From a virus, in IMG/VR virus record IMGVR_UViG_3300044714_000170, positions 1 to 40,259 of that record: a stretch of 40,259 nucleotides of DNA, one strand, 5' to 3'. This document shows, piece after piece, positions 3,551 to 40,259 of this stretch; positions within the stretch are counted from its first letter, which is position 1; every line of letters starts with the position of its first letter. A program made the position numbers and the translations under genes. The notes beneath the pieces are model-generated. The model did no database searches and had not been told where the DNA came from. It worked only from the letters and a program-made list of their open reading frames with translations.

Positions 3551-4683
3551 AGAGACCCAAAGCTTGACATTTGTCCGTTATTTCCATAGTTCTCTGTCAG
3601 TTGATCCGTGTAGAGAGTTGAAATCCGTTCTTGCCCTATCTGAGCGTACGTTCTTGTTTCAATGATGTCATAACGCTCTTTCAGCATCTTGTCGATGAAC
3701 ATGACTCCATCGGAATCCAGCCTTTCTTCGAATATTTTCTTAGCAGCTCCCACAGCTAAAATTTCCCACCATTCAGAGAGTTCTGGATTTCCTGTCATGT
3801 CTGCTGATAATAGAGCCTGGATCGGCTGTCGATAGCATGTCAGCTCGATCGTGTAACCAGCGTCCGGTGTTGGACATAATGTGAATTGGTTCTGATAGAA
3901 CATAATGGCAAGAGGAATGGAGAACTGTTTAGGATTGTATTGAATCTGTATCGGTGTTCCCTCGGGAATAGCCTCGGCGAAGACAAGTCCGGTGATTTCT
4001 CCTGTCTGATAATTGATCGTTGCGTTTCCTGGAAGAGTAGGAGTTGAAGAAGCATACTGGCGATAGTAAGTCCAGCCAAATTCTTGATTTCCTGCATTGC
4101 TAGTCTGGAAGATTTGAATCAGATTTCCCTGACCGTCGTCAGTTACATTTTGTGTCTGACCTACTCCATTGGCTCCGATAACATTAGCAGTGATGAGGAT
4201 GTTTTGAACTCTGCTCTGAGGGAAGAAAAGATTGCGATTGAGTTGCGTCCCTGGGTCATTGTTGACACTGGGAATGAAAGGGAAAGCCGTCGTAAAGCCG
4301 CTGTAAGGCCCTGTAGTGCCATCGCCAGAGGCGAAGTTAGTAAAGTCCTGCCAATTGAAATTGGCTGCGTAGAATGACCAGGGATTGTGAAATAGCTTGA
4401 TTTCTCTCTTAGCGCAGAAACAAGGCTGATTGACCGTTATGTATAGCTCGCTATTGAAAGGATAGACATCTTGACCGACATTGGTCGTGAACGTGTAGAC
4501 ATCTTTGAGTTTTAAAGATCGGAATTTAGCTGGCAGATCATAGGCATAGAAGCTGTGCATTTGCTGCACAATGTAAGAATCCGTGACTTGAAAAGAGTTG
4601 CTAGAACCCGTGAGTTTACGTGTCTTGGTGACTGCATTGGCTAAAGTCGGATAAAGAGGATATGTTGGTACAAATGTTGTCAT
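3547..4683 (-). CDS. Putative head-tail adaptor or neck protein
   Basis: The 378-residue product has a beta-rich N-terminal two-thirds with many aromatic and Asn residues. It ends in a helical segment (NPELSEWWEILAVGAAKKIF and following) of the kind seen in neck and adaptor proteins, where helices pack on the portal. Its ATG overlaps the methyltransferase stop as ATGA. It lies upstream of the fibre-like and nozzle-like genes, the usual place for a connector component. No exact family is recognised, so the role comes from position and composition. Confidence 0.5.
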   Translation of the reverse strand: MTTFVPTYPLYPTLANAVTKTRKLTGSSNSFQVTDSYIVQQMHSFYAYDLPAKFRSLKLKDVYTFTTNVGQDVYPFNSELYITVNQPCFCAKREIKLFHNPWSFYAANFNWQDFTNFASGDGTTGPYSGFTTAFPFIPSVNNDPGTQLNRNLFFPQSRVQNILITANVIGANGVGQTQNVTDDGQGNLIQIFQTSNAGNQEFGWTYYRQYASSTPTLPGNATINYQTGEITGLVFAEAIPEGTPIQIQYNPKQFSIPLAIMFYQNQFTLCPTPDAGYTIELTCYRQPIQALLSADMTGNPELSEWWEILAVGAAKKIFEERLDSDGVMFIDKMLKERYDIIETRTYAQIGQERISTLYTDQLTENYGNNGQMSSFGSL

Positions 4684-5825
4684 ACTATCTCCAACAGCAA
4701 TTGAGAATCATTTTCCATCTCATTGTCGAATGCATTTATACGAGATCTTGCAATCTCTGCATATTCCTCACTCTTCTCTATACCAATAGCGTCAAAGCCT
4801 AAGCGTTTGGCTGCAAGGATGGTCGTGCCTGATCCTGCGAATGGGTCGAGAAGAAGGCCATCTTTCGGGGGCATGACGAGCTTGATGAGGTATTCCATGA
4901 GCTTGAGGGGCTTGACGGTGGGGTGGTGGTTTTGTCGCGCAGTTGGAGAAGATTTGGGCGTTTCTCTTCCAGGGTTGTCTTTAAATTCTCCCATTAGCGG
5001 CTTACAAATCTCTGGCAATCCCTCCAACCCCTCATTCCTCTCGCTAGAAGATGCTTTGGCGCAGTAGAAGAAGCGGGAGGCGCCGCCTCCGTTGTCACCA
5101 GGCCAAACACCTTTCATTGTTGATGTTTTTTCATCATCAAAATAACCGAAACCAGATCCCCCCTTTACTCCCTCGCGTTGTTGTTTTGGCTTACTAAATC
5201 CACTCTGTTCATCCAGCATCGCGCCCGCTTCCTCATCGAGAATGACGTTGGCGGGCCAGCGGCCTTTTGAGTACGTCAATTCCCCTTTTGAAACCTCCTT
5301 TGGAGCCCTTCCATCTTGCTCTTTCCACTTTTGATGAGACGTATGATCATTAGAGTTTGGGATCAAATCTGTTCCTATTCTGCTGGCCGCAATATTAATC
5401 CCAGCTTGTCCCCACTTCTCTGCGTTCTGCTTGAACGTGCCATCGCAGGGTTTCATGGCAACGATACAAGGCTCCCAAGCAGGCTTGAGAGCAGTTCCGT
5501 AACCTTCGAGTCCGAACTTATTGTGACTTTTAGGAAATCCTGATCCGTATAACCAGCTGATGCAATCGCGAATTTCAAACCCTGCGTCTTCAATGGCACA
5601 AGTGAGGCGGTGAAAGGTTCTAGTTCCTCCCATTGCAACAAGAAAACTACCCGGTTTACAAATTCTGAACGCCTCTTTCCAATAGTGAACGTCTGGTATA
5701 GCATAATCCCATCCTTTTCCCATGAATGATAAGCCATACGGTGGATCGGTGACAATGCAAGAAAAGTGGTTGTCGGGAAAGGTTTTCATTACTTCTAGGC
5801 AATCACCTTGGATTATTTCATTCAT
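4680..5825 (-). CDS. DNA methyltransferase, beta-class N6-adenine/N4-cytosine type
   Basis: This protein transfers a methyl group from S-adenosylmethionine to an exocyclic amino group in DNA. Catalytic motif IV, DPPYG, is at residues 27-31. The SAM-binding motif I, FAGSGTT, is near residues 329-335. The order IV, recognition domain, I is typical of the beta class. Length (381) is normal and no frame break is seen. There is no neighbouring restriction enzyme, so it is an orphan that may protect phage DNA or mark it. It is embedded in the tail operon and coupled at both ends by ATGA overlaps, which is unusual for this kind of cargo. Confidence 0.9.
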   Translation of the reverse strand: MNEIIQGDCLEVMKTFPDNHFSCIVTDPPYGLSFMGKGWDYAIPDVHYWKEAFRICKPGSFLVAMGGTRTFHRLTCAIEDAGFEIRDCISWLYGSGFPKSHNKFGLEGYGTALKPAWEPCIVAMKPCDGTFKQNAEKWGQAGINIAASRIGTDLIPNSNDHTSHQKWKEQDGRAPKEVSKGELTYSKGRWPANVILDEEAGAMLDEQSGFSKPKQQREGVKGGSGFGYFDDEKTSTMKGVWPGDNGGGASRFFYCAKASSSERNEGLEGLPEICKPLMGEFKDNPGRETPKSSPTARQNHHPTVKPLKLMEYLIKLVMPPKDGLLLDPFAGSGTTILAAKRLGFDAIGIEKSEEYAEIARSRINAFDNEMENDSQLLLEIV

Positions 5826-10333: not shown

Positions 10334-10866
10334 ATCCTGGTCGCCAGACTGTTGGAGCTATCTATAGAGAGGCACAGATAAATGGAGAAAAAGGCGTTGT
10401 TATTGGAGATGTCAATCATGAAATTAAAAAGGATTTAGTCAAAGACATTAACGAAGCCATTGAGCAAGGAGAAAAGGAAATGGAAGGGAAGCCTTTTTAT
10501 CTGGCCATCTATGAAAAGTACGACCTAATGCTGAAACGAGGATTAGTAAGAATACGCAAAATCACTAAATACCGTCCCTATCCAGAACAGGACATGATGC
10601 TATTTCACGTCTATCCCGGAGGAACGGTCTATTTCTGCTGGGAATTGCCTCACAGGTCGCAAATGATGAATATATTGATGAATCCTGACCTCTTCGATCC
10701 TGAATATGTTCAAACGATCAAACGATGGGAAAATATACAATTGGAATACTTTGGTTTCAAAAAAGATGAAGAAGGCAATTGGATTGAAAACGAACTGTTC
10801 CGAGGGGATTACCTGTTAGGCTCCCCTCAACAAGAGAAGCCCGCTTCTAAACTACTCTTGGCCTAA
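10312..10866 (+). CDS. Conserved phage protein of unknown function (184 aa)
   Basis: The product starts MEHQSNLDPGRQTVGAIYRE and has a central block with PFYLAIYEKYDLMLKRGLVR followed by a Trp/His/Met-rich segment. I recognise the general pattern as a protein often found near structural genes of related phages, but no function is known to me. SD GGGG lies nine bases before the ATG. Its 3' end overlaps a minus-strand gene by 15 bases. Both plus-strand genes here probably share the promoter at 9962. Confidence 0.65.
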   Translation: MEHQSNLDPGRQTVGAIYREAQINGEKGVVIGDVNHEIKKDLVKDINEAIEQGEKEMEGKPFYLAIYEKYDLMLKRGLVRIRKITKYRPYPEQDMMLFHVYPGGTVYFCWELPHRSQMMNILMNPDLFDPEYVQTIKRWENIQLEYFGFKKDEEGNWIENELFRGDYLLGSPQQEKPASKLLLA

Positions 10867-11181
10867 CCAGCCACCCCAGCGTTTGAGATATACCATGACC
10901 TCGTATGTCTGGTCCAAGCCAAGTTCTTCGCACCAGGCAGCATCTTTGATGATTGCCTCATGCTCAGCCCTCCCTCGAATATTTATCCACTTTCGATCTG
11001 GCAGGTGTTCGGGAACATCTATTCCTCCAAATGGATCTTTCTCTATCATATCCCTCCTGACTAAGTTTAAATGCGTGTAATGGTCTTTAAAATGGCAAGG
11101 ACACTCTGGGCCGCAAGTGCTTGCCAGGACGTATGTAGATCGGGGAGTCCATGAACTCCCCAGGGTATCCTTATCCTTCAT
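10852..11181 (-). CDS. Hypothetical protein, third gene of the partition operon (109 aa)
   Basis: The N-terminus holds a Cys/His cluster (CGPECPCHFKDHYTH, about residues 23-37) that could bind metal. The C-terminus is Trp/Glu-rich. It overlaps the RHH gene by 11 bases and is read in the same direction, so it is probably co-transcribed with the partition pair. A role in plasmid maintenance is possible, but nothing in the sequence proves it. Its 3' end overlaps the convergent plus-strand gene. Confidence 0.5.
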   Translation of the reverse strand: MKDKDTLGSSWTPRSTYVLASTCGPECPCHFKDHYTHLNLVRRDMIEKDPFGGIDVPEHLPDRKWINIRGRAEHEAIIKDAAWCEELGLDQTYEVMVYLKRWGGWLGQE

Positions 11182-11395
11182 AAAAACTTTCTAACTCTTC
11201 ATTGATAACTTCTAAGATCCAATGCGTTCTACTTATCCAAGGATTATCTTCGAGCAACATATCTATGCGATTTAACATGCTCGTAGGGATTCTGATTAAA
11301 ATATTTTTGAATCCCGTCTCTTCAATTGCCTTAACTTCGGCTCCCTTGTCAATAAATTTATCGATTGAAGGGACTGATTTTTTCTTGACTGTCAT
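11171..11395 (-). CDS. Ribbon-helix-helix partition protein, ParG-like
   Basis: The 74-residue product has a flexible basic N-terminus (MTVKKKSVPSID). A short beta strand follows (NILIRIPTSM, about residues 30-39) and then two helices, the plan of a ribbon-helix-helix dimer. It follows the ParA gene by 25 bases. In type Ib systems such as ParF-ParG of plasmid TP228, a 76-residue RHH protein binds the centromere and represses the operon, while its N-terminal tail stimulates ParF. Size, gene order and composition all agree. The SD region contains CATATAGGA, also found before parA. Confidence 0.75.
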   Translation of the reverse strand: MTVKKKSVPSIDKFIDKGAEVKAIEETGFKNILIRIPTSMLNRIDMLLEDNPWISRTHWILEVINEELESFYEG

Positions 11396-11420
11396 ATGAA
11401 TCCTATATGTTTTGTATATA

Positions 11421-12056
11421 TCAACTGTATATTAAATCGTAAAGAGTTTGCATTTCCTGACATGCTTTTTTGTCTGGAAAAGACATTTCACACACGGCAA
11501 GTCCTTCGGCAGCTGCATTTCTGAATGCCTTCCGATTTCCAATCATGCACTCTAAAGTCTGAATGTCGGTAAATTCTCTTAGGATCTCCAGAGCCTCTTT
11601 ATTATCTTTCCCCATGGAATCGGCTTGGCTTACTACCGCATAAACTTTAAGCCTAGGATTAACACATTCTGATAGGATTCCTTTGATAGGAACCATGGTC
11701 CAGATGTCTATTGAACTGGGTTTAAAGGGGAGGATAAGCTTGTCGGCGATGCATAAGGCTGAACGCTGGGAAGTCGTGTCCCTACCACCGGTATCAACGA
11801 TAATGTCTTCGTAGTCTTCTTTAAATCTGTTCAAATTTGAATGGATTGCTTTTCCCGACATACAGACGGTCGAAAAGTTTCCGTGCATAAAATTCAGATC
11901 GTGGGCATCTCTTTGCTGAGACCAGTCCCAAGCACTTTTCTGCTCATCCGCATCAACTAGCAAAACCTTGTGGCTTTTGGATCGCATGACGGCTAAGTTG
12001 GTTGCGATCGTCGTCTTTCCACTGCCCCCCTTGATGCCACCGACTACAATAATCAT
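11421..12056 (-). CDS. parA: ParA-family partition ATPase (type Ib, ParF-like)
   Basis: The deviant Walker A motif KGGSGKTT is at residues 9-16, Walker A' (LLVDADEQ) at 32-39, and a Walker B-like IIVDTGG at 85-91. At 211 residues it lacks the N-terminal DNA-binding domain of larger ParA proteins and so matches the short type Ib group. These ATPases bind nucleoid DNA and move plasmid copies to both daughter cells. The next gene is a small RHH protein, the expected partner. An inverted repeat overlaps the SD, suggesting autoregulation. In a phage genome this indicates a plasmid-like prophage stage. Confidence 0.88.
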   Translation of the reverse strand: MIIVVGGIKGGSGKTTIATNLAVMRSKSHKVLLVDADEQKSAWDWSQQRDAHDLNFMHGNFSTVCMSGKAIHSNLNRFKEDYEDIIVDTGGRDTTSQRSALCIADKLILPFKPSSIDIWTMVPIKGILSECVNPRLKVYAVVSQADSMGKDNKEALEILREFTDIQTLECMIGNRKAFRNAAAEGLAVCEMSFPDKKACQEMQTLYDLIYS

Positions 12057-12179: not shown

Positions 12180-12785
12180 ATGATTTTTAAAGAAAAAAAA
12201 ACTCGATTCGATAGAGTCTCCCATTCCTCAAGAAAAATTTCTTGGGATGAAAAAGAATATGAATCATTTCATAAAAATTACCTTGGAATCGCTATATATT
12301 TCGCAACGAACAAATCAATTAGATTCAAAATAAAAGATAGGAATTTGAATGAATCATCTGCCATGGAAGCGATGTTTGAAAGTTTTTGTGAATTAACTAA
12401 TTATAACAAAACATCAAAAGAAAACGACATTCTTATAAGAAATATAATAAAAAGAAATTGCAATAGATGTGTCATGCACCAGTTGATTTATTTTGGTTAT
12501 ATAAAAAATAAGGGAACTATATTTTTCCCAACAGAATTTGTTAAATGGGAAGAATTTTTTATAGATCGCTCTTCTTGCAACAGCTCAAAAATAAGCAAAA
12601 AAGAAATAGAAGATTCACTAGATGAACACGCATTCAGTAGAATCGAAAAATCAGTGATACTTGAATTTTTAGAAGGATTATATCAAAGAGAGATTGCACA
12701 AAAAATAGGAGTAAGTCAACCTTTTGTACATAAAATATTGAACAGAATTTTTAAAAAATTAAACATAGATCAAAAGAAGGACTAA
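12180..12785 (+). CDS. Sigma-70 region 4-like regulator (201 aa)
   Basis: The C-terminal 45 residues form a sigma region 4 type helix-turn-helix: a Glu-Lys-Ser helix, then LYQREIAQKIGVSQPFVHKI, then a final basic helix. The upstream part is Lys/Asn-rich with no clear region 2, so it may be a divergent sigma factor or a stand-alone regulator. It diverges from parA with 123 bases between. The SD is weak. A protein of this kind could redirect host polymerase to late virion promoters. It is very AT-rich compared with the virion genes, suggesting separate acquisition. Confidence 0.6.
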   Translation: MIFKEKKTRFDRVSHSSRKISWDEKEYESFHKNYLGIAIYFATNKSIRFKIKDRNLNESSAMEAMFESFCELTNYNKTSKENDILIRNIIKRNCNRCVMHQLIYFGYIKNKGTIFFPTEFVKWEEFFIDRSSCNSSKISKKEIEDSLDEHAFSRIEKSVILEFLEGLYQREIAQKIGVSQPFVHKILNRIFKKLNIDQKKD

Positions 12786-21501: not shown

Positions 21502-21781
21502 CGTAACCTCCCGTAGCTCTATTTTCCCACCCTCGAGATTCCAGGAAATGTTTGATATCTTCTTGCAAGAAATTGCTGTCTTGGGAATATGACTTCAAAT
21601 ATTTCTTTTCACCGTTCTGCTTGACGGATGCGTTTATCACATCCCAGAACATACCGCCATTCTGCATTTTTTTCCTCAAATACGTCACTCTATGCTTTTT
21701 CTCTATGCACAAAATAACCGCTTCTTTCGTGTATTCATCCTCTGGAAAACTTTCATGGCTAACAAAATCAAATCCGTTCAT
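21461..21781 (-). CDS. Replication-operon protein with an SSB-like acidic tail (106 aa)
   Basis: The C-terminus ends in SKSDDEVPF, almost the same as the DDDIPF tail of single-strand-binding proteins, which docks many replication partners. The rest (KEAVILCIEKKHRVTYLRKK, then MFWDVINASV) is not a clear OB fold by eye. It may be a divergent SSB or a factor that mimics its tail. It is coupled to the initiator gene by an ATGA overlap (21778-21781). Confidence in a replication role is moderate. Confidence 0.55.
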   Translation of the reverse strand: MNGFDFVSHESFPEDEYTKEAVILCIEKKHRVTYLRKKMQNGGMFWDVINASVKQNGEKKYLKSYSQDSNFLQEDIKHFLESRGWENRATGGYVAQNSKSDDEVPF

Positions 21782-22767
21782 GCAATCCTCATGCTGTTTT
21801 TGCTTATATTTTCTTCACACTTTTTCTCAAATTCCCCATCAGAAAATGGGATAAAAATACTTTCTTGGTATGGACTTTGGCTCTCAAAAAGTATTCCCGT
21901 TTGATCTTTCTTTTTGTTTCGGTACATGGAGCATTTCCATCCATTGGCCTTCTTAAAATCACAAAATGTCATACATAATTTTTTAGCGAAAGCAAAATTA
22001 TCTTCAAGTCGAGCTTTTGTATCCTCGGGAATCTTCCACTGCGATAGAGCATTTGGCCAATCGAGAATTTCCTTTTTTCTCTTGGGGCTTTTCTGAATGA
22101 AAACAATTGCTTGTATGACTTTCTGCTCATCTCCTTTGATCCGAATGCACGCCTCAAGTTCTTCCTGGCTCAAGAAGACTCCTGGAATTATCTCTCGTTT
22201 CCCTTTCGAAAGAAAATCATCCGTCAACGCATCATCCCGACCCGAAGGGATTGAGGGATGATCTTCTTTTTCTTGATCATTCTTAATCCTTCTTAATCCT
22301 TCTTGTTTATCGCCCTTGATTCGCCCTTGATTCGCCCTTGATTCGCCCTTTCGTTCGCCCTTTGAGTGGTTATCGCTTTCTGAATTTATATCCCAAACTT
22401 CTGAATTACAAAGCTCTACGAGAGTTCCTTCTGTGGTTGGTTCGTTCGCCCTTTCGTTCGCCCCATTTGTGGTTTCAAATAATTTCTTCGTTTGTTTTGC
22501 CTTTTTTCTTGTGCGACTCGTAACAACGATTTTTATGAGTCCTTGTTCCACCAAAACTTTCTTGGCATACCTGTACTCTTTGTCGGTCATTCCATAGTTT
22601 TTGTGGCCTCCTAAATGGCATTGACCGATTGTGAGGCCGTCAAGATTTCCGTTTTTTCTCCTTGCTTGGTTGGCAATAATCATCAAAAGGATAAATGCGT
22701 TCTTGTATTTAATGGCAAATTGTATTGCCGCTTCGGATGGAATAAATTTTAGAAATCTTTCAGACAT
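21778..22767 (-). CDS. Replication initiator, lambda O-like
   Basis: The ATG at 22767 has an SD (TGGAG, 5 bases away), so I prefer it to the longer frame. The N-terminal 100 residues form a winged helix-turn-helix of the phage replication O type (TIGQCHLGGHKNYGMTDKEY, then KKVLVEQGLIKIV). A long charged, low-complexity linker follows, and a separate C-terminal domain is probably for helicase recruitment. The linker DNA holds seven TCGCCC iterons, as lambda O holds the lambda origin. No helicase or polymerase is visible in the window, so host enzymes are needed. Family call by eye. Confidence 0.7.
   Translation of the reverse strand: MSERFLKFIPSEAAIQFAIKYKNAFILLMIIANQARRKNGNLDGLTIGQCHLGGHKNYGMTDKEYRYAKKVLVEQGLIKIVVTSRTRKKAKQTKKLFETTNGANERANEPTTEGTLVELCNSEVWDINSESDNHSKGERKGESRANQGRIKGDKQEGLRRIKNDQEKEDHPSIPSGRDDALTDDFLSKGKREIIPGVFLSQEELEACIRIKGDEQKVIQAIVFIQKSPKRKKEILDWPNALSQWKIPEDTKARLEDNFAFAKKLCMTFCDFKKANGWKCSMYRNKKKDQTGILFESQSPYQESIFIPFSDGEFEKKCEENISKNSMRIA
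22281..22463. repeat. Iteron array and AT-rich repeats: probable replication origin
   Basis: Seven copies of TCGCCC occur, at 22310, 22321, 22332, 22343, 22355, 22446 and 22458. Spacing is 11 or 12 bases, one helix turn. On one side, 22281-22300 holds two copies of a 10-base AT-rich unit (TCTTAATCCT), like an unwinding element. All lie inside the initiator gene. Confidence 0.65.
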
Positions 22768-22940: not shown

Positions 22941-23216
22941 CTATTCATTTAGAGCTGGCCCTGTAATGTCTACCTGAAAAGTCTCATCGCATTCAACGAA
23001 GTCGATCAAATTCAGAAACATGAGAGGAGCCAGTAAATTTCTGTACATGGTAGGGGATATCAAATATTCCTTACGGACATTTTTTTTATGCGTAACAACA
23101 TGCATTTTCTTTCCTTTCTTCTTCCATATTTGCATATAAAGAAAAGCAGATTTTGGGCAGTTTTTTAATACTCTTAAGAAATATTTTAAAGGAGGAAATT
23201 CATTATAATCATTCAT
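22941..23216 (-). CDS. Putative winged-helix replication-operon protein (91 aa)
   Basis: The ATG at 23216 overlaps the upstream stop as ATGA and has SD AGAGGAG, so I use it instead of a longer frame. The product (MNDYNEFPPLKYFLRVLKNC) looks like a small winged helix: a helix, a KKKGKKM loop, a helix with ISPTMYRNLLAPL and a final beta pair. It could be a regulator or helper of initiation. It precedes the terminator-like hairpin at 22861. No exact family is recognised. Confidence 0.55.
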   Translation of the reverse strand: MNDYNEFPPLKYFLRVLKNCPKSAFLYMQIWKKKGKKMHVVTHKKNVRKEYLISPTMYRNLLAPLMFLNLIDFVECDETFQVDITGPALNE

Positions 23217-23542
23217 GCGTCTTTCTCCTCTAATTTTCTCTTCCAAAATATGACTTTGTCTTGGGGTTTTAGGCGTAATCCACACCATATCGACCCATTT
23301 ATCCATCCGGGAATGGTTTTTTCTCTTTCAAGTCTCATGTAAACTAAATCGAAGTCATCGGGAAGATATTTTTTGCTTTCTGCCCATCCCTCGATATCGT
23401 ATTCAAAATCTTGATAAGAATAAAAAATACGTGTTTTTTTTGACTTTCCAGTTTCTTCGTTTTTAGTGATTTTAAAGAATTTAAAATCACTTACTTTAAT
23501 CGCTGGAAAATAGGGGGGAAGAGGGGATTGTTTTTTTTCCAA
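23213..23542 (-). CDS. Hypothetical protein, first full gene of the replication operon (109 aa)
   Basis: The preferred start is a TTG at 23542 with SD GAGGAT 6 bases away; an earlier TTG at 23557 lies ahead of that SD. The product is Lys/Phe/Trp-rich with an FYSYQDFEYDIEGWAE block and no known motif. Its leader contains an 11-codon frame, a hairpin and a converging antisense RNA. This makes it the point where operon expression is probably set. Confidence 0.55.
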   Translation of the reverse strand: MEKKQSPLPPYFPAIKVSDFKFFKITKNEETGKSKKTRIFYSYQDFEYDIEGWAESKKYLPDDFDLVYMRLEREKTIPGWINGSIWCGLRLKPQDKVIFWKRKLEEKDA

Positions 23543-23566
23543 AGATATTATCCTCAATAAAATTTG

Positions 23567-23596
23567 TTGTTTTTTTTATCGAGGAAAACTTATGAT
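23567..23596 (+). promoter_or_regulatory. Promoter candidate for the antisense RNA
   Basis: TTGTTT (23567-23572) and TATGAT (23591-23596) are 18 bases apart on the plus strand. Transcription from about 23603 would end at the terminator at 23717-23750. The boxes are moderate matches in T-rich DNA, so this site is less sure than the terminator it would serve. Confidence 0.45.
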
Positions 23597-23626
23597 CATC
23601 CGGTGAAATGACGGCCTTCCTCGATA
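23577..23626. repeat. 10-bp inverted repeat in the replication leader
   Basis: TATCGAGGAA (23577-23586) and TTCCTCGATA (23617-23626) match perfectly around 30 bases. On the minus strand this is a stem-loop in the leader RNA between the 11-codon frame and the first full gene. Its left arm overlaps the candidate antisense promoter. It could hide or expose the downstream start. Confidence 0.65.
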
Positions 23627-23632
23627 TGTTGG

Positions 23633-23668
23633 TTAGTTGATTGATTTTTCTAGAGTCGGTCTACACAT
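23633..23668 (-). CDS. 11-residue leader peptide
   Basis: ATG at 23668 follows a good SD (AGGAG, 5 bases away) and opens an 11-codon frame, MCRPTLEKSIN, ending in TAA. It lies in the replication-operon leader before the 10-bp hairpin. A well-placed ribosome site on such a short frame suggests a regulatory leader peptide, like tap or repY of antisense-controlled plasmids. Its peptide sequence is probably unimportant. Confidence 0.45.
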   Translation of the reverse strand: MCRPTLEKSIN

Positions 23669-23716
23669 AACATCTCCTGTTAGGTTGTCGTTTTGATGAT
23701 ATTCTAGTCTTTCTTT

Positions 23717-23750
23717 GGTGCAGCTAATTGGCGTTGGCTGCACCCTTTTT
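23717..23750 (+). terminator. Intrinsic terminator on the plus strand
   Basis: GGTGCAGC (23717-23724) and GCTGCACC (23737-23744) form an 8-bp stem followed by CTTTTT. No plus-strand protein gene lies upstream for over a kilobase. Its natural client is therefore a short noncoding transcript. It also overlaps the start point of the minus-strand replication transcript. Confidence 0.85.
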
Positions 23751-23777
23751 CATAATATTTACCAAATTTATTTGCAA
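23749..23777 (-). promoter_or_regulatory. Promoter of the replication operon
   Basis: On the minus strand TTGCAA (23772-23777) and TATGAA (23749-23754) are 17 bases apart. The -35 region sits in a perfect palindrome, ATTTGCAAAT (23770-23779). Transcription would begin near 23742. From there to the repressor gene (23943) the plus and minus strands show no gene, only AT-rich DNA. Confidence 0.6.
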
Positions 23778-23942
23778 ATACATTTCTTTATTCATTACTT
23801 TTGTGATTGAGAACTTTTTTTCTCTGAGAGGGTTATGTATCCAAAAAACCCACGCCAAAATCTCATTAGAATCAAACTCTGTACAGGTATTTCTCTAATC
23901 GTCGATTTTCTTACTTCCTATTTCGGATGTAGCTTTACAGAT

Positions 23943-24152
23943 TTACTCATTACTTCCTTGGGTTTCGTCTATCCAGTCATAGACGGTAATGGCCCCTTTT
24001 GTGTATTTCTCTATCTCATAAGCCAATGTCAAGCTTGGCATCTTTCCCTGTCTAAGTATATCGTGCAAGGTAGACGTACTGATGCCGAGTTTCTCTGCTA
24101 CGCCACGTTGTTTTTTGTCATTACTGTGCACCCATTTTGCAAATTTGTTCAC
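23943..24152 (-). CDS. Cro/CI-type helix-turn-helix repressor (69 aa)
   Basis: The start is a GTG at 24152 with SD AGAGGAT. The helix-turn-helix is clear: QRGVAEKLGISTSTLHDILR (residues 15-34). The C-terminal part (YTKGAITVYDWIDETQGSNE) matches the end of Cro-like and antitoxin-type XRE proteins. There is no cleavage domain, so induction by the SOS protease route is not expected. It is divergent from the recombination operon with 188 bases between, the classic place for a lysogeny switch. It probably represses the promoters on both sides. Confidence 0.75.
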   Translation of the reverse strand: MNKFAKWVHSNDKKQRGVAEKLGISTSTLHDILRQGKMPSLTLAYEIEKYTKGAITVYDWIDETQGSNE

Positions 24153-28693: not shown

Positions 28694-30211
28694 TTATATA
28701 TATTCTGTAACAATAATCACACCTGAGGATCCATTACCCCCCGTTCCTGGACCAGCTAGAGCATTAGCTCCAGCTCCTGAACCTCCTCCTCCATAATTAC
28801 TAGCTGCATTTCCATTAACTACTTGCGCTGTTCCATTGGAAGCATTAGATGCTGCTCCTCCTCCAAAATAGGAATTACCACCTTTACCTCCTGTTACGCC
28901 CGCATTATTCGATGCTGATCCTGATCCAGAACCTCCTGTGCTAACAAAAGATCCTCCACTACCGGATCCTCCAGCTACTCCTCCTACCATTGCCGAAGCT
29001 GCCGTAACTTGAGTTGTAATTCCTCCTGTCCCTCCATTAGCCGTCATGAGAGCACCTAATGTCGTATTTCCCCCATTATTTCCTGCAGCTCCTGAAACTC
29101 CGGTACCGCCTGCTCCTATGGTAACTGTTTGGGAAGTACCAATTTGTGCTGCTGTGAAGAGTCCTCTAACATATCCTCCAGCTCCTCCTCCCGCTCCCGT
29201 AGAAATCATACCGGTAGTATTAGTAGCGGCTCCTCCTCCGGCTCCTCCTCCACCTACCGCTTCGGCTATACAGTATTTCATTCCTGCTGTGGGAGTATAG
29301 GTTCCATTTGAAGTAAATGTTTGAACTACAATCTTTTGAAAATCGGATGCTGGAAGGATAGTTTGGGTAGTAGGATTTATTGCAGTTGAAGTTCCAGAGT
29401 AAGAAATATTCTGATATTTGAAAGTTCCAGATCCAGTTACGACATTAGTATTAGAGCTTGATAAAACTAATTCTGAAGCTGTTAGCGTTGTTCCTGAACC
29501 TACCGATATTGCTGAAGCTGTTCCAGATATCATTTTAGTGTGAGAGATTATGGAAGATCCTGTTCCAGCTGTTGTCAAGGCAATAGAATTTGTTGTAGAA
29601 CAATCTATTTTGCTATGATGCATGCTCATTGTTCCAGAACCAGACGTAGCTATAGGTGAGGAAAAATTAGTATAATCAAAAATTTGACTACCTGAAGTGG
29701 AAGAAGCGGTCGTAGATCCTCCAGAATTGGTGAAATAGCAATCATTTGTAGTAATAGCACCTGCACCTGTCCAAAAACTAACCCCAGTAGTCTGTAAATC
29801 CCCATTTGTAGCAGCTTGCATTTGAACAGTAGAACTTGCTCCTACGCTTATTCCTGTCGCATTGGTACATATTATTTCACATCCTAATAAAACAACTAAG
29901 GAGGAAGATCCTGTCAATGCAATTACATTATCACCATTCGTCTGGAGTATTATATTTGAAAATGTAGCAGCAACACTTGCTCCATTGTCTATTATCTTTC
30001 CTATAATTTTAGGACTTCCATTATATGCAAAAAATTTGTTTCCATTTTTTATAGTTAGATTTTCAGTATAAGTTCCTGTTGATCCATAGCAAATAAAAAT
30101 GGCTTCGCCAGCAGGTAAAGCAGCAATAGCTGCTCCAATGGTTGTAAAATCTCCATGTCCAGAAGAATCTACAATTCTTCCTTTGATTGTAGCATAATCT
30201 CTATAACCCAT
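28694..30211 (-). CDS. Tail spike or adhesin: beta-helix plus Gly-rich tip
   Basis: The 505-residue product has a right-handed beta-helix style N-terminal half with regular short strands, like pectate-lyase-fold tail spikes (DFTTIGAAIAALPAGEAIFI). The C-terminal 190 residues are a Gly/Ala/Ser-rich region. It has FTSNGTYTPTAG before a GGGGAGG start and the final GSSGVIIVTEY seen in glycine-rich phage adhesins. Such tips contact the host receptor. It is last in the fibre operon, with its start sharing bases with the upstream stop (TAATG). Confidence 0.75.
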   Translation of the reverse strand: MGYRDYATIKGRIVDSSGHGDFTTIGAAIAALPAGEAIFICYGSTGTYTENLTIKNGNKFFAYNGSPKIIGKIIDNGASVAATFSNIILQTNGDNVIALTGSSSLVVLLGCEIICTNATGISVGASSTVQMQAATNGDLQTTGVSFWTGAGAITTNDCYFTNSGGSTTASSTSGSQIFDYTNFSSPIATSGSGTMSMHHSKIDCSTTNSIALTTAGTGSSIISHTKMISGTASAISVGSGTTLTASELVLSSSNTNVVTGSGTFKYQNISYSGTSTAINPTTQTILPASDFQKIVVQTFTSNGTYTPTAGMKYCIAEAVGGGGAGGGAATNTTGMISTGAGGGAGGYVRGLFTAAQIGTSQTVTIGAGGTGVSGAAGNNGGNTTLGALMTANGGTGGITTQVTAASAMVGGVAGGSGSGGSFVSTGGSGSGSASNNAGVTGGKGGNSYFGGGAASNASNGTAQVVNGNAASNYGGGGSGAGANALAGPGTGGNGSSGVIIVTEYI

Positions 30212-33976: not shown

Positions 33977-34303
33977 ATGTTCCATGAAGATTTTAAAGAT
34001 ATCGATGAACTCAAAAGAGAGTATCATCTATCCGATGAAGATTTGCAGGGAGTAGAGATTCTTTATGCTATCTATAGAACGGGATGTTGGGAAGGCCAAT
34101 CGCTTGTCTTGTTTAAAAAAGATGATAGGATTTTTATAGTCCATGCTTCCCATTGCTCTTGCTATGGCCTACAAGGTCAATGGGATCCTATTGAAACAAA
34201 CGAAAAAACTCTAAAAATGGAAATAGAAGCCAAATCTAAATACTTTTACCAAGAATTTGAATCTTTTATTCAATTTTGCAAGGAATATTTTTCATGGAAA
34301 TAA
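33977..34303 (+). CDS. Conserved phage protein with Cys/His motif (108 aa)
   Basis: The product contains GCWEGQSLVLF and HASHCSCYGLQGQWDP, a phrase I recognise from many unrelated phage genomes as a short family of unknown function. SD GGAG precedes the ATG. It overlaps RtcB by 10 bases. Its Cys/His block could bind metal or sense redox state. Confidence 0.7.
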   Translation: MFHEDFKDIDELKREYHLSDEDLQGVEILYAIYRTGCWEGQSLVLFKKDDRIFIVHASHCSCYGLQGQWDPIETNEKTLKMEIEAKSKYFYQEFESFIQFCKEYFSWK

Positions 34304-35478
34304 TTGACGGAATCCCAGTCTGGGGAGATCCACTTCCAGAAGCAGTCCAACAAATGAAGGCGGTAATGAACTATGAAAAAGCACCAGATTATGTTGCCCT
34401 TATGGCCGATCATCACATTGGTTACAGCGTCCCTGTGGGGGGAGTTGTTGCCTATGAAAGAGCTATCAATGTCAATGGCGTTGGGTTTGACATTGCTTGC
34501 GGTAATAAAGCTGTTCTCCTGGATTGCTCTGCTGATAACGTTAAGAATAACATCTATAGAACGATGAATGAAATCCAAAGCAAGATCAGCTTTGGAGTAG
34601 GAAGGAAAAATAATGAAAAAGTGGATCACGTCTTGTTCGATAACCCTGTGTGGACAGAACTTGAAATTCTCCGAAATCTTAAAGATAAAGCAGTTTATCA
34701 ACTGGGAACAGTCGGATCAGGTAATCACTACGTGGATATCTTTACGGATGAGCTTAACCGCATTTGGATTGGCGTTCATTTTGGGAGCCGCGGTCTGGGA
34801 CATAGTATTGCGACTCATTTCATAAAACAAGCAGGAGGAAAAGATGGAATCCACGCACAACCGGTCATTCTTGATGAAAATTCAGACCTCGGAACCCAAT
34901 ATATTAAATGCATGGAACTTGCTGGTCAGTATGCTTACGCTGGCAGAGATTGGGTTTGTGAGCGAGTGGCCACTATTCTTAGAGGGAACATCCTGGAATC
35001 AATTCACAATCACCATAACTTTGCATGGAAAGAACGACATTTTGGTAAAGATCTGTGGGTGGTTAGAAAAGGGGCGACTCCCGCTTTCCCTGGCCAGAAA
35101 GGTTTTGTTGGGGGCTCTATGGGAGACATTTCCGTCATACTTGAAGGAATCGAATCTCCTGTTGCGACACAGGCTCTTAATTCGACAATCCATGGAGCAG
35201 GCCGTCTCCTCGGAAGAACTCAAGCCAAAGGAAAAACCTGTCGAAAAACAGGAAAAAAACTCACCGAAGGACTCATCAAAAAAGAAGAACATGATGCATG
35301 GATGTGCGCCGCAAATGTCGAAGTACGTGGAGGCGATTTGGACGAATCACCCTACGCCTACAAGCGTATACGAAATATTCTCAAAGCCCATGAATCAACA
35401 ATAAAAATTTTACACACTCTGACTCCCATTGGGGTTTGCATGGCTGACGATAGAACTTTTGATCCTTATAAGGATTAA
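34294..35478 (+). CDS. rtcB: RtcB-family RNA ligase
   Basis: RtcB joins RNA ends with a 2',3'-cyclic phosphate or 3'-phosphate to a 5'-OH, using GTP and manganese. Key motifs are present: ADHH (38-41), GVGFDIACG (62-70) with the metal Cys69, GSGNHYVD (141-148), VHFGSRGLGH (161-170) and the nucleotidyl-acceptor block HGAGR at 300-304. The start at 34294 has SD AAGGA. At 394 residues it is close to the normal size and looks active. Phage RtcB can repair tRNAs cut by host defence ribonucleases. No archease partner lies alongside. Confidence 0.93.
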   Translation: MEIIDGIPVWGDPLPEAVQQMKAVMNYEKAPDYVALMADHHIGYSVPVGGVVAYERAINVNGVGFDIACGNKAVLLDCSADNVKNNIYRTMNEIQSKISFGVGRKNNEKVDHVLFDNPVWTELEILRNLKDKAVYQLGTVGSGNHYVDIFTDELNRIWIGVHFGSRGLGHSIATHFIKQAGGKDGIHAQPVILDENSDLGTQYIKCMELAGQYAYAGRDWVCERVATILRGNILESIHNHHNFAWKERHFGKDLWVVRKGATPAFPGQKGFVGGSMGDISVILEGIESPVATQALNSTIHGAGRLLGRTQAKGKTCRKTGKKLTEGLIKKEEHDAWMCAANVEVRGGDLDESPYAYKRIRNILKAHESTIKILHTLTPIGVCMADDRTFDPYKD

Positions 35479-39671: not shown

Positions 39672-40175
39672 CTAGTTTTTTAAATATTCCATAACCCAAA
39701 CACACCATGTCAGAGCATTACCTGAATTGTTTTGGATAATTATCGTATTTGTCGAGTTATTGTAGCGCACGTAAATTGAGGGATCGTTTAGGAAATAAGA
39801 CAATCCGGTCGTATCGACTGCTCCCCCAAAACCTTGGACCGGATAAAGATAGCCAACTATGTTTTGAGGTTGTGTCGAAGAGGATAAAACGAGGTTCGTT
39901 GTTCCCGTTGGTATATTACCCCCATTGAGCGCAACTAAGTCAGCCGTGATCCTGTAAGCATTTCTGTTTTGTTGAGGATTACCATTTTGATACCATTGCT
40001 CAAAATTGGCACTTTCCTGAAGGAGGAAAAGACCGCTTTCCTTTGTATTGACAGCATTAGCTACTCTGCGAAGATATAGCAACAGAATATTCTCGAAGTC
40101 TTTGTCTTCAGGATTAACATCCAGAGAAATAGGCAGTTGATTGGTATTGATAGGCGAATTGCTTGAGATTGTCAT
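39672..40175 (-). CDS. Virion protein (167 aa), tail-associated
   Basis: The N-terminal 50 residues are helical (DFENILLLYLRRVANAVNTK) and the rest a beta domain ending in Trp/Val strands (ALTWCVWVMEYLKN). This short family often lies between the nozzle protein and the ejection proteins in podovirus-like genomes. SD AAGGAAG. Codon 9 is Ile here and Leu in the partial copy at the left end. Exact role unknown. Confidence 0.6.
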   Translation of the reverse strand: MTISSNSPINTNQLPISLDVNPEDKDFENILLLYLRRVANAVNTKESGLFLLQESANFEQWYQNGNPQQNRNAYRITADLVALNGGNIPTGTTNLVLSSSTQPQNIVGYLYPVQGFGGAVDTTGLSYFLNDPSIYVRYNNSTNTIIIQNNSGNALTWCVWVMEYLKN

Positions 40176-40259
40176 GGTTACACTTCCTTATACTTCTTTG
40201 TACTTTCTTATACATTTTAATTTATCAGTCTTCCGCCCTCTCTAAACCAGATATTCATG
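40074..40259. repeat. Terminal direct repeat, right copy
   Basis: Repeats bases 1-186 with one mismatch (T at 40151 against G at 78). The right edge of the window is therefore the same place as base 186. Taking one copy away leaves a closed molecule of about 40,073 bp. Confidence 0.95.
40217..40259 (-). CDS. Nozzle-like protein, partial duplicate copy (3' end only)
   Basis: The last 13 codons and the stop of the 841-residue tail gene, repeated because the window overlaps itself. It is the same gene as 144-2669 and should not be counted twice. Confidence 0.85.
   Translation of the reverse strand, partial: MNIWFREGGRLIN

Follow-up and report, generated by a model that had tools for sequence, protein, structure and literature searches.

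The window analyzed here is the whole 40,259-nucleotide stretch of DNA in IMG/VR virus record IMGVR_UViG_3300044714_000170 (positions 1 to 40,259). The record looks complete, and a 186-base direct repeat at both ends (1-186 and 40074-40259, with one mismatch) suggests a circular map. The locus of interest is read from the minus strand, where a leader lies between a gene for a Cro/XRE-type helix-turn-helix (HTH) protein (23943..24152, minus strand; HTH_3, 5.1e-06) and a replication operon. The HTH gene, upstream of the operon, is conserved in relatives, and its product is a candidate Cop-like repressor of the operon. The first operon gene in the window is orfA (23213..23542, minus strand, TTG start), which occurs in a minority of relatives; besides the window, L012, L015, L016, L026, and L034 have it inserted past the leader and ahead of orfB (L numbers denote loci). 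In most relatives the first gene past the leader is orfB (22941..23216, minus strand); where orfA has been inserted, it is orfA that the leader's Shine-Dalgarno sequence serves. The 91-amino-acid product of orfB is a predicted winged-helix protein, with an alignment of 24 sequences, an AlphaFold2 pLDDT of 86, and weak PDB matches that are mostly to winged-helix regulators.

The next large gene encodes a putative replication protein of the replisome organizer or O-like type (21778..22767, minus strand, start inferred from relatives). It gave no meaningful Pfam match and no usable match in a fold search. PHROG 13246, a replisome organizer, is matched by 5 of the 20 members of its alignment (best 5.7e-19), with the window copy itself unmatched; the families to which homologues are assigned by such matches are of the replisome organizer, O-like, and DnaD-like kinds. 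As the same operon slot in relatives holds DnaD-, DnaC-, and DnaB-like genes, the genes downstream of the leader can be assigned to a replication operon, in agreement with the original prediction, which was made from the window sequence. On the opposite strand, at 23778-23960, there seems to be a divergent plus promoter that shares a palindromic TTGCAA as its -35 element; it is also seen in L008, L016, L032, L054, L030, and others. The gene behind this promoter encodes a 40- to 50-amino-acid single-helix membrane protein (MKEVW..EI..G.K..PE.RYF...) and lies opposite the last part of the HTH gene, in antisense orientation; in the window it has lost its start codon.

Relatives of the locus were collected in several ways. 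Searches of an annotated phage collection returned no nucleotide resemblance to the leader region, annotated phages and plasmids gave no nucleotide match to the leader, and annotated phages gave no match to orfB and one weak match, in a Vibrio phage, to the replication protein. A single-protein search of viral contigs with the replication protein also found no match. A terminase search of IMG/VR yielded 42 loci, to which two MAG contigs were added from a genome collection, and in approximately 24 of these loci the leader has the Cro/XRE-type HTH gene on one side and the replication operon on the other. Searches with orfB and the HTH protein added further relatives, including distant ones with orfB 32-46% identical, bringing the related leaders to approximately 30, nearly all from IMG/VR phages. 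The analyses below use 25 aligned leaders, 26 main-group leaders, or, for duplex-energy tests, 30 loci. A search of viral contigs with the pattern TTGATRRTATTCTAGTCT was set aside, as three of its seven matches fell outside the known relatives (L049, L051, and L052) and looked chance-like.

The operon promoter, TTGCAA-17-TATGAA (23749..23777, minus strand; TTGCAA at 23772-23777 and TATGAA at 23749-23754), lies where the original prediction had placed it, with a predicted start near 23742, and its TTGCAA is kept in 23 of the 26 main-group leaders. A leader peptide fared differently. The predicted 11-codon frame with a strong Shine-Dalgarno sequence does exist in the window, as MCRPTLEKSIN with AGGAG upstream, but among the 26 main-group leaders only the window has such a frame with both Shine-Dalgarno and ATG, and we rejected the peptide as a conserved part of the system. 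The expectation that stems and Shine-Dalgarno would be conserved stands for the stems, which are kept and covary, and not for the Shine-Dalgarno of this frame.

Opposite the leader, the features of the window define a putative countertranscribed RNA (ctRNA; 23603..23751, plus strand) of approximately 147-150 nt with two hairpins. Its candidate promoter is TTGTTT-18-TATGAT (23567..23596, plus strand; -35 at 23567-23572 and a conserved -10 at 23591-23596), and the start is placed approximately 7 nt past the -10. Consensus scans of the window do not by themselves distinguish these signals from chance, with 15 promoter-like sites where 14.6 +/- 3.6 are expected and 6 terminator-like sites where 4.7 +/- 2.5 are expected, and the case is built on conservation rather than on the scans. 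Promoter and terminator nevertheless lie within a base or two of where they had been predicted, and both are conserved in relatives. Across 25 aligned genomes the plus -10 reads TA-N3-T, with the T, the A, and the final T invariant, and a TTG-type -35 precedes it by 16-18 nt in the aligned leaders. In L030 and L060 an insertion splits off the old -35 and supplies a new TTGACA at the proper spacing, and L005 is without a clear -35. Insertions between leader segment B (defined below) and the plus -10 are seen in L005 (4187-4450), as an inverted repeat with ACGCGT arms, and in L030 (3718-3950), where the insertion carries the consensus TTGACA.

The plus strand of 23592-23752 is predicted to fold at -56.1 kcal/mol (z = -6.0), and the opposite strand folds more weakly (z = -2.9). 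The same preference is seen in the mean z across 25 relatives, at -3.60 for plus and -1.62 for minus. With an invariant -10, a covarying terminator stem, and this fold, the proposal of a conserved plus-strand noncoding RNA antisense to the leader holds up well, and, judged by conservation, we take the RNA to be real. The antisense-RNA system as a whole appears to be conserved in an uncultured phage family.

The terminator hairpin (23717..23750, plus strand) consists of a 12-bp stem (23717-23744) followed by CTTTTTC, with the loop UUGGCG at 23728-23733 and a U tract that shares bases with the minus-promoter -10. Comparison across related phages, a check that the original prediction had proposed for the hairpin loop, finds 98.4% of cells in the stem alignment paired, with changes on both sides in 11 of the 12 pairs; none of 500 shuffles was as good, and versions slid out of register dropped to 28-39%. 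The consensus stem has an energy of -18.4 kcal/mol when read as plus-strand RNA and -0.7 kcal/mol as minus-strand RNA, where it is weak because G-U pairs turn into A-C. The loop is near-invariant, its core TTGGCG being present in all main-group leaders but L042, which has GTGGCG. Several relatives have a poor U tract. In the main group, each phage genome gives a single clear match to a covariance model, at this leader. A second, weak match occurs in the L017 record (G006) at 28824-28863, on the opposite strand and approximately 600 bases from the main one. Among distant relatives, the model matches L080, L086, and, weakly, L085, all of which keep a shorter form with promoter, A region, and terminator hairpin present. 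As the hairpin is absent from the distant orfB relatives L083, L043, and L140, not every orfB operon has the RNA. Rfam returned nothing at gathering thresholds over the window, and nothing up to E = 2 over 23400-24000.

The 5' hairpin (23605..23694, plus strand) has a basal stem that pairs 23605-23617 with 23682-23694. Plain RNAalifold on MAFFT alignments recovered the terminator stem alone; it missed the 5' stem because the 5' domain misaligns, and duplex energies with shuffles were therefore used instead, comparing each genome's own segments (self) with segments mixed between genomes (cross). On the plus strand the basal stem scored -11.26 kcal/mol self and -8.97 kcal/mol cross (0 of 20,000 shuffles), and on the minus strand the energies were weak (106 of 20,000). 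The mean fold z of the domain is likewise -2.17 for plus and -0.16 for minus. These comparisons point to covariation of the 5' hairpin when it is read as plus-strand RNA, with no clear sign of it in the minus-strand reading. Its apical part is hypervariable in sequence and length across genomes. A second UUGGCG-like copy (UUGUCG in the window, at approximately 23685) lies in the 3' arm of the 5' stem, within 23670-23692, and directly upstream of it is a partly conserved CCUCC-type motif.

Beneath the ctRNA and its promoter, the leader contains three segments on the minus strand that can pair in two ways. Segment A (23613..23627; ATATCGAGGAAGGCC) is complementary to the ctRNA and pairs with segment B; segment B (23576..23590; AGTTTTCCTCGATAA) acts as a putative anti-Shine-Dalgarno and can pair with A or with C; and segment C (23549..23563) holds the Shine-Dalgarno sequence GAGGA of the first gene (23551-23555). 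The leader stem-loop that had been predicted is present as the B-with-A hairpin of 12-13 pairs (23576-23590 with 23613-23627), and it now appears as one half of a conserved, covarying switch. Over 30 loci, the A:B duplex gave -14.46 kcal/mol self and -11.35 kcal/mol cross, and the B:C duplex gave -10.80 and -8.90, each with 0 of 20,000 shuffles; these shuffle statistics leave shared ancestry in, which is answered only in part by the strand controls and by the A:C control, a pair of the same relatedness not expected to base pair, where the signal was absent (13,334 of 20,000). Both duplexes lose strength when read as plus-strand rather than minus-strand RNA. Compensating changes in B:C are found in L034 (ACAAGGA/TCCTTGT) and L042 (AAGAGGA/TCCTCTT). 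The two helices are mutually exclusive, and either can form in nearly all of the 30 loci; B:C is weak in L014 and L080, and A:B in L019.

Segment B is situated opposite the spacer of the plus promoter, which puts its complement outside the ctRNA, and wherever a relative has a recognizable promoter the inferred ctRNA start is just beyond B, covering A and sparing B. As the ctRNA is complementary to A and not to B, its pairing should close the ribosome site. Partition-function folding gives this model partial support: blocking the ctRNA-covered part of the leader raises the mean predicted pairing of the Shine-Dalgarno with B from 0.68 to 0.90, and in 24 of the 30 leaders the Shine-Dalgarno becomes less exposed (Wilcoxon p 1.3e-4). 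That same mean of 0.68 indicates that in many free leaders at equilibrium the Shine-Dalgarno is already predicted to pair with B, so the switch would need kinetic, co-transcriptional control. An open state in which A:B forms before C has been transcribed is plausible, and a kinetic order of folding is usual among attenuators. We also considered that the ctRNA might hide the Shine-Dalgarno directly, and rejected this, as B:C is the stronger pairing in 26 of 30 loci and the direct pairing barely covaries (973 of 20,000 shuffles). No U run follows B:C, the sequence there being AATATC / TTATG.

It can be hypothesized how these parts would work together. Where the ctRNA is lacking, A would pair with B once both are transcribed, leaving the Shine-Dalgarno in C free, and the first gene (orfB, or orfA in the window) would be translated, with the replication protein next. 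Where the ctRNA is present, its loops, that of the terminator with UUGGCG among them, may touch the leader, in which a CGCCAA loop is complementary, and as pairing spreads across A, B would be released to fold on C and hide the ribosome site. More genome copies would provide more ctRNA and hence negative feedback on replication, and the same ctRNA would also confer incompatibility or immunity toward related phages that enter the cell.

The genes of these phages offer some context for such a role. A tyrosine integrase is absent from all 17 phage records, and the window has neither a tyrosine nor a serine integrase; ParA is present in 5 of the 17 records and in two of four distant relatives (L080, L082, L085, and L086). 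The combination of ParA in some members with the absence of integrase makes plasmid-like persistence, and with it an extrachromosomal life of some members, plausible. In the window, a ParA-type ATPase adjoins a 74-amino-acid protein (11171-12056, minus strand), the latter matching a small phage repressor family as a putative ribbon-helix-helix protein, and the two form a candidate partition pair. The L080 record (G018), a relative that also carries ParA, has a serine resolvase at 10777-11214. Elsewhere in the window are an open reading frame with a sigma-70 region 4-like end supported by weak matches (12180-12785, plus strand), one that resembles an RtcB-type RNA ligase on reading the sequence (34276-35478, plus strand), and one likely to encode a DNA methyltransferase, judging from its DPPY motif (4680-5825, minus strand).

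We favor the reading that the ctRNA represses the replication operon by translational attenuation and so exerts negative feedback on replication, and assign it a probability of about 0.6. A layout produced by chance, or mere transcriptional interference by an RNA without function, would accord with promoter and terminator scans at chance level, but it sits so poorly with the terminator stem and three other RNA helices, all of which show compensatory changes, and with the plus-strand preference of the ctRNA fold, that we hold it to be the least credible account. Barely more credible is an attenuated leader for the small MKEVW-type membrane protein gene, which in many relatives lies directly past the terminator on the same strand; that gene has a candidate promoter of its own (TTGCAA-17/18-TACTTT type), and the RNA is retained where the gene is decayed, as in the window, or absent, as in L045.

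More weight, if still not much, is due to the idea that the leader switch and the plus-strand RNA are separate devices, with the leader sensing another signal (the orfB protein or ribosome loading) and the RNA acting in trans on phage or host mRNAs through its CCUCC loop. The conserved structure of the ctRNA itself, its partly conserved CCUCC motif, and the many free leaders predicted to be closed already would fit this improbable arrangement; it is countered by the placement of the ctRNA start past B, covering A only, in every relative with a recognizable promoter, and by the short-form relatives, which retain promoter, A region, and terminator hairpin. Somewhat better placed, though in our view unlikely, is a primary function as an immunity RNA by which a resident genome turns off the replication operon of relatives that superinfect, much like the CI RNA of P4, with copy control secondary or absent. 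RNA and target would be the same, a hypervariable 5'-hairpin apex is what a specificity determinant would look like, and the lysogenic state of P4 has antisense control of replication genes (PMC4825925); against this, ParA in some relatives and the lack of integrase point to plasmid-like persistence, for which copy control would be needed, and the two roles can coexist.

If the preferred reading of translational attenuation is extended, it could be speculated, tentatively, that these phages are a part-time plasmid lineage in which the ctRNA and its anti-Shine-Dalgarno switch set copy number and incompatibility with relatives, and the apex of the 5' hairpin defines incompatibility or immunity groups. 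Control of copy number by antisense RNA is textbook knowledge for plasmids, and the system would tie the control of phage replication to it in a lineage of 38-40 kb phages. It would also supply a candidate determinant of immunity or incompatibility that can be read from sequence, and would be a new RNA family, absent from Rfam.

The closest likeness is to pSK41-type RNAI of staphylococcal RepA_N plasmids, likewise a two-stem-loop antisense RNA with complementarity to leader sequence that precedes the start site; its binding, according to the proposal for that plasmid, brings about a stem in which the ribosome site is concealed (PMC5703833). Here, two rival leader helices, one of which would hide the Shine-Dalgarno, both covary; the bound state is predicted to close the Shine-Dalgarno, and the free state to be partly closed too. 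The differences are that the hosts of the system are phages, that the RNA is approximately 150 nt rather than approximately 83, and that the first gene encodes a small winged-helix protein or orfA and not rep. As the initiator is unrelated and not RepA_N, the system would follow the logic of the pSK41 type without being a member of it. The small XRE-type HTH gene upstream, together with an antisense RNA in a long leader, recalls CopR and RNAIII of pIP501 and the Inc18 family (PMC5703833). Whereas pT181 and pIP501 terminate transcription by attenuation, B:C here is not followed by a U tract of the terminator kind.

The original prediction had compared the layout with IncFII and IncI plasmids, in which leader-peptide translation is coupled to translation of the initiator. 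This comparison is retained for the loop motif, as CopA/CopT of IncFII and Inc RNA/RepZ of IncI likewise have a hairpin loop with 5'-UUGGCG-3', a YUNR sequence, but not for the anatomy, which is of the pSK41 type: UUGGCG here lies in the terminator loop of the antisense RNA, a Shine-Dalgarno switch replaces coupled translation, and no leader peptide is conserved among the 26 main-group leaders, the frame being present in the window only. The title of Asano et al. 1998, as it stands in the reference list of PMC3753616, names the UUGGCG motif for ColIb-P9, and YUNR U-turn sequences are general in antisense recognition loops (PMC4485353).

Among phages, the mycobacteriophages with parABS share partition genes and a noncoding RNA linked to extrachromosomal replication, which that RNA has been proposed to initiate (PMC7157519); here, by contrast, the phage encodes an initiator protein, to whose leader the RNA is antisense. 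Other phage antisense RNAs act elsewhere, such as OOP of lambda on cII and sar of P22 on the antirepressor (PMC5415839). The suggestion that no clear case was known in a podovirus-like genome needs qualification, as far as phages are concerned, in view of satellite phage P4, where the antisense CI RNA, processed from a primary transcript, is reported to shut the replication genes via the leader by transcription termination (PMC4825925). The CI RNA (c4 type) comes from the same strand as its operon, as a product of the leader, whereas the ctRNA is countertranscribed, from the strand opposite the operon and from a putative promoter of its own. With P4 as precedent, antisense control of phage replication genes is not a new category; it is the layout found here that is new.
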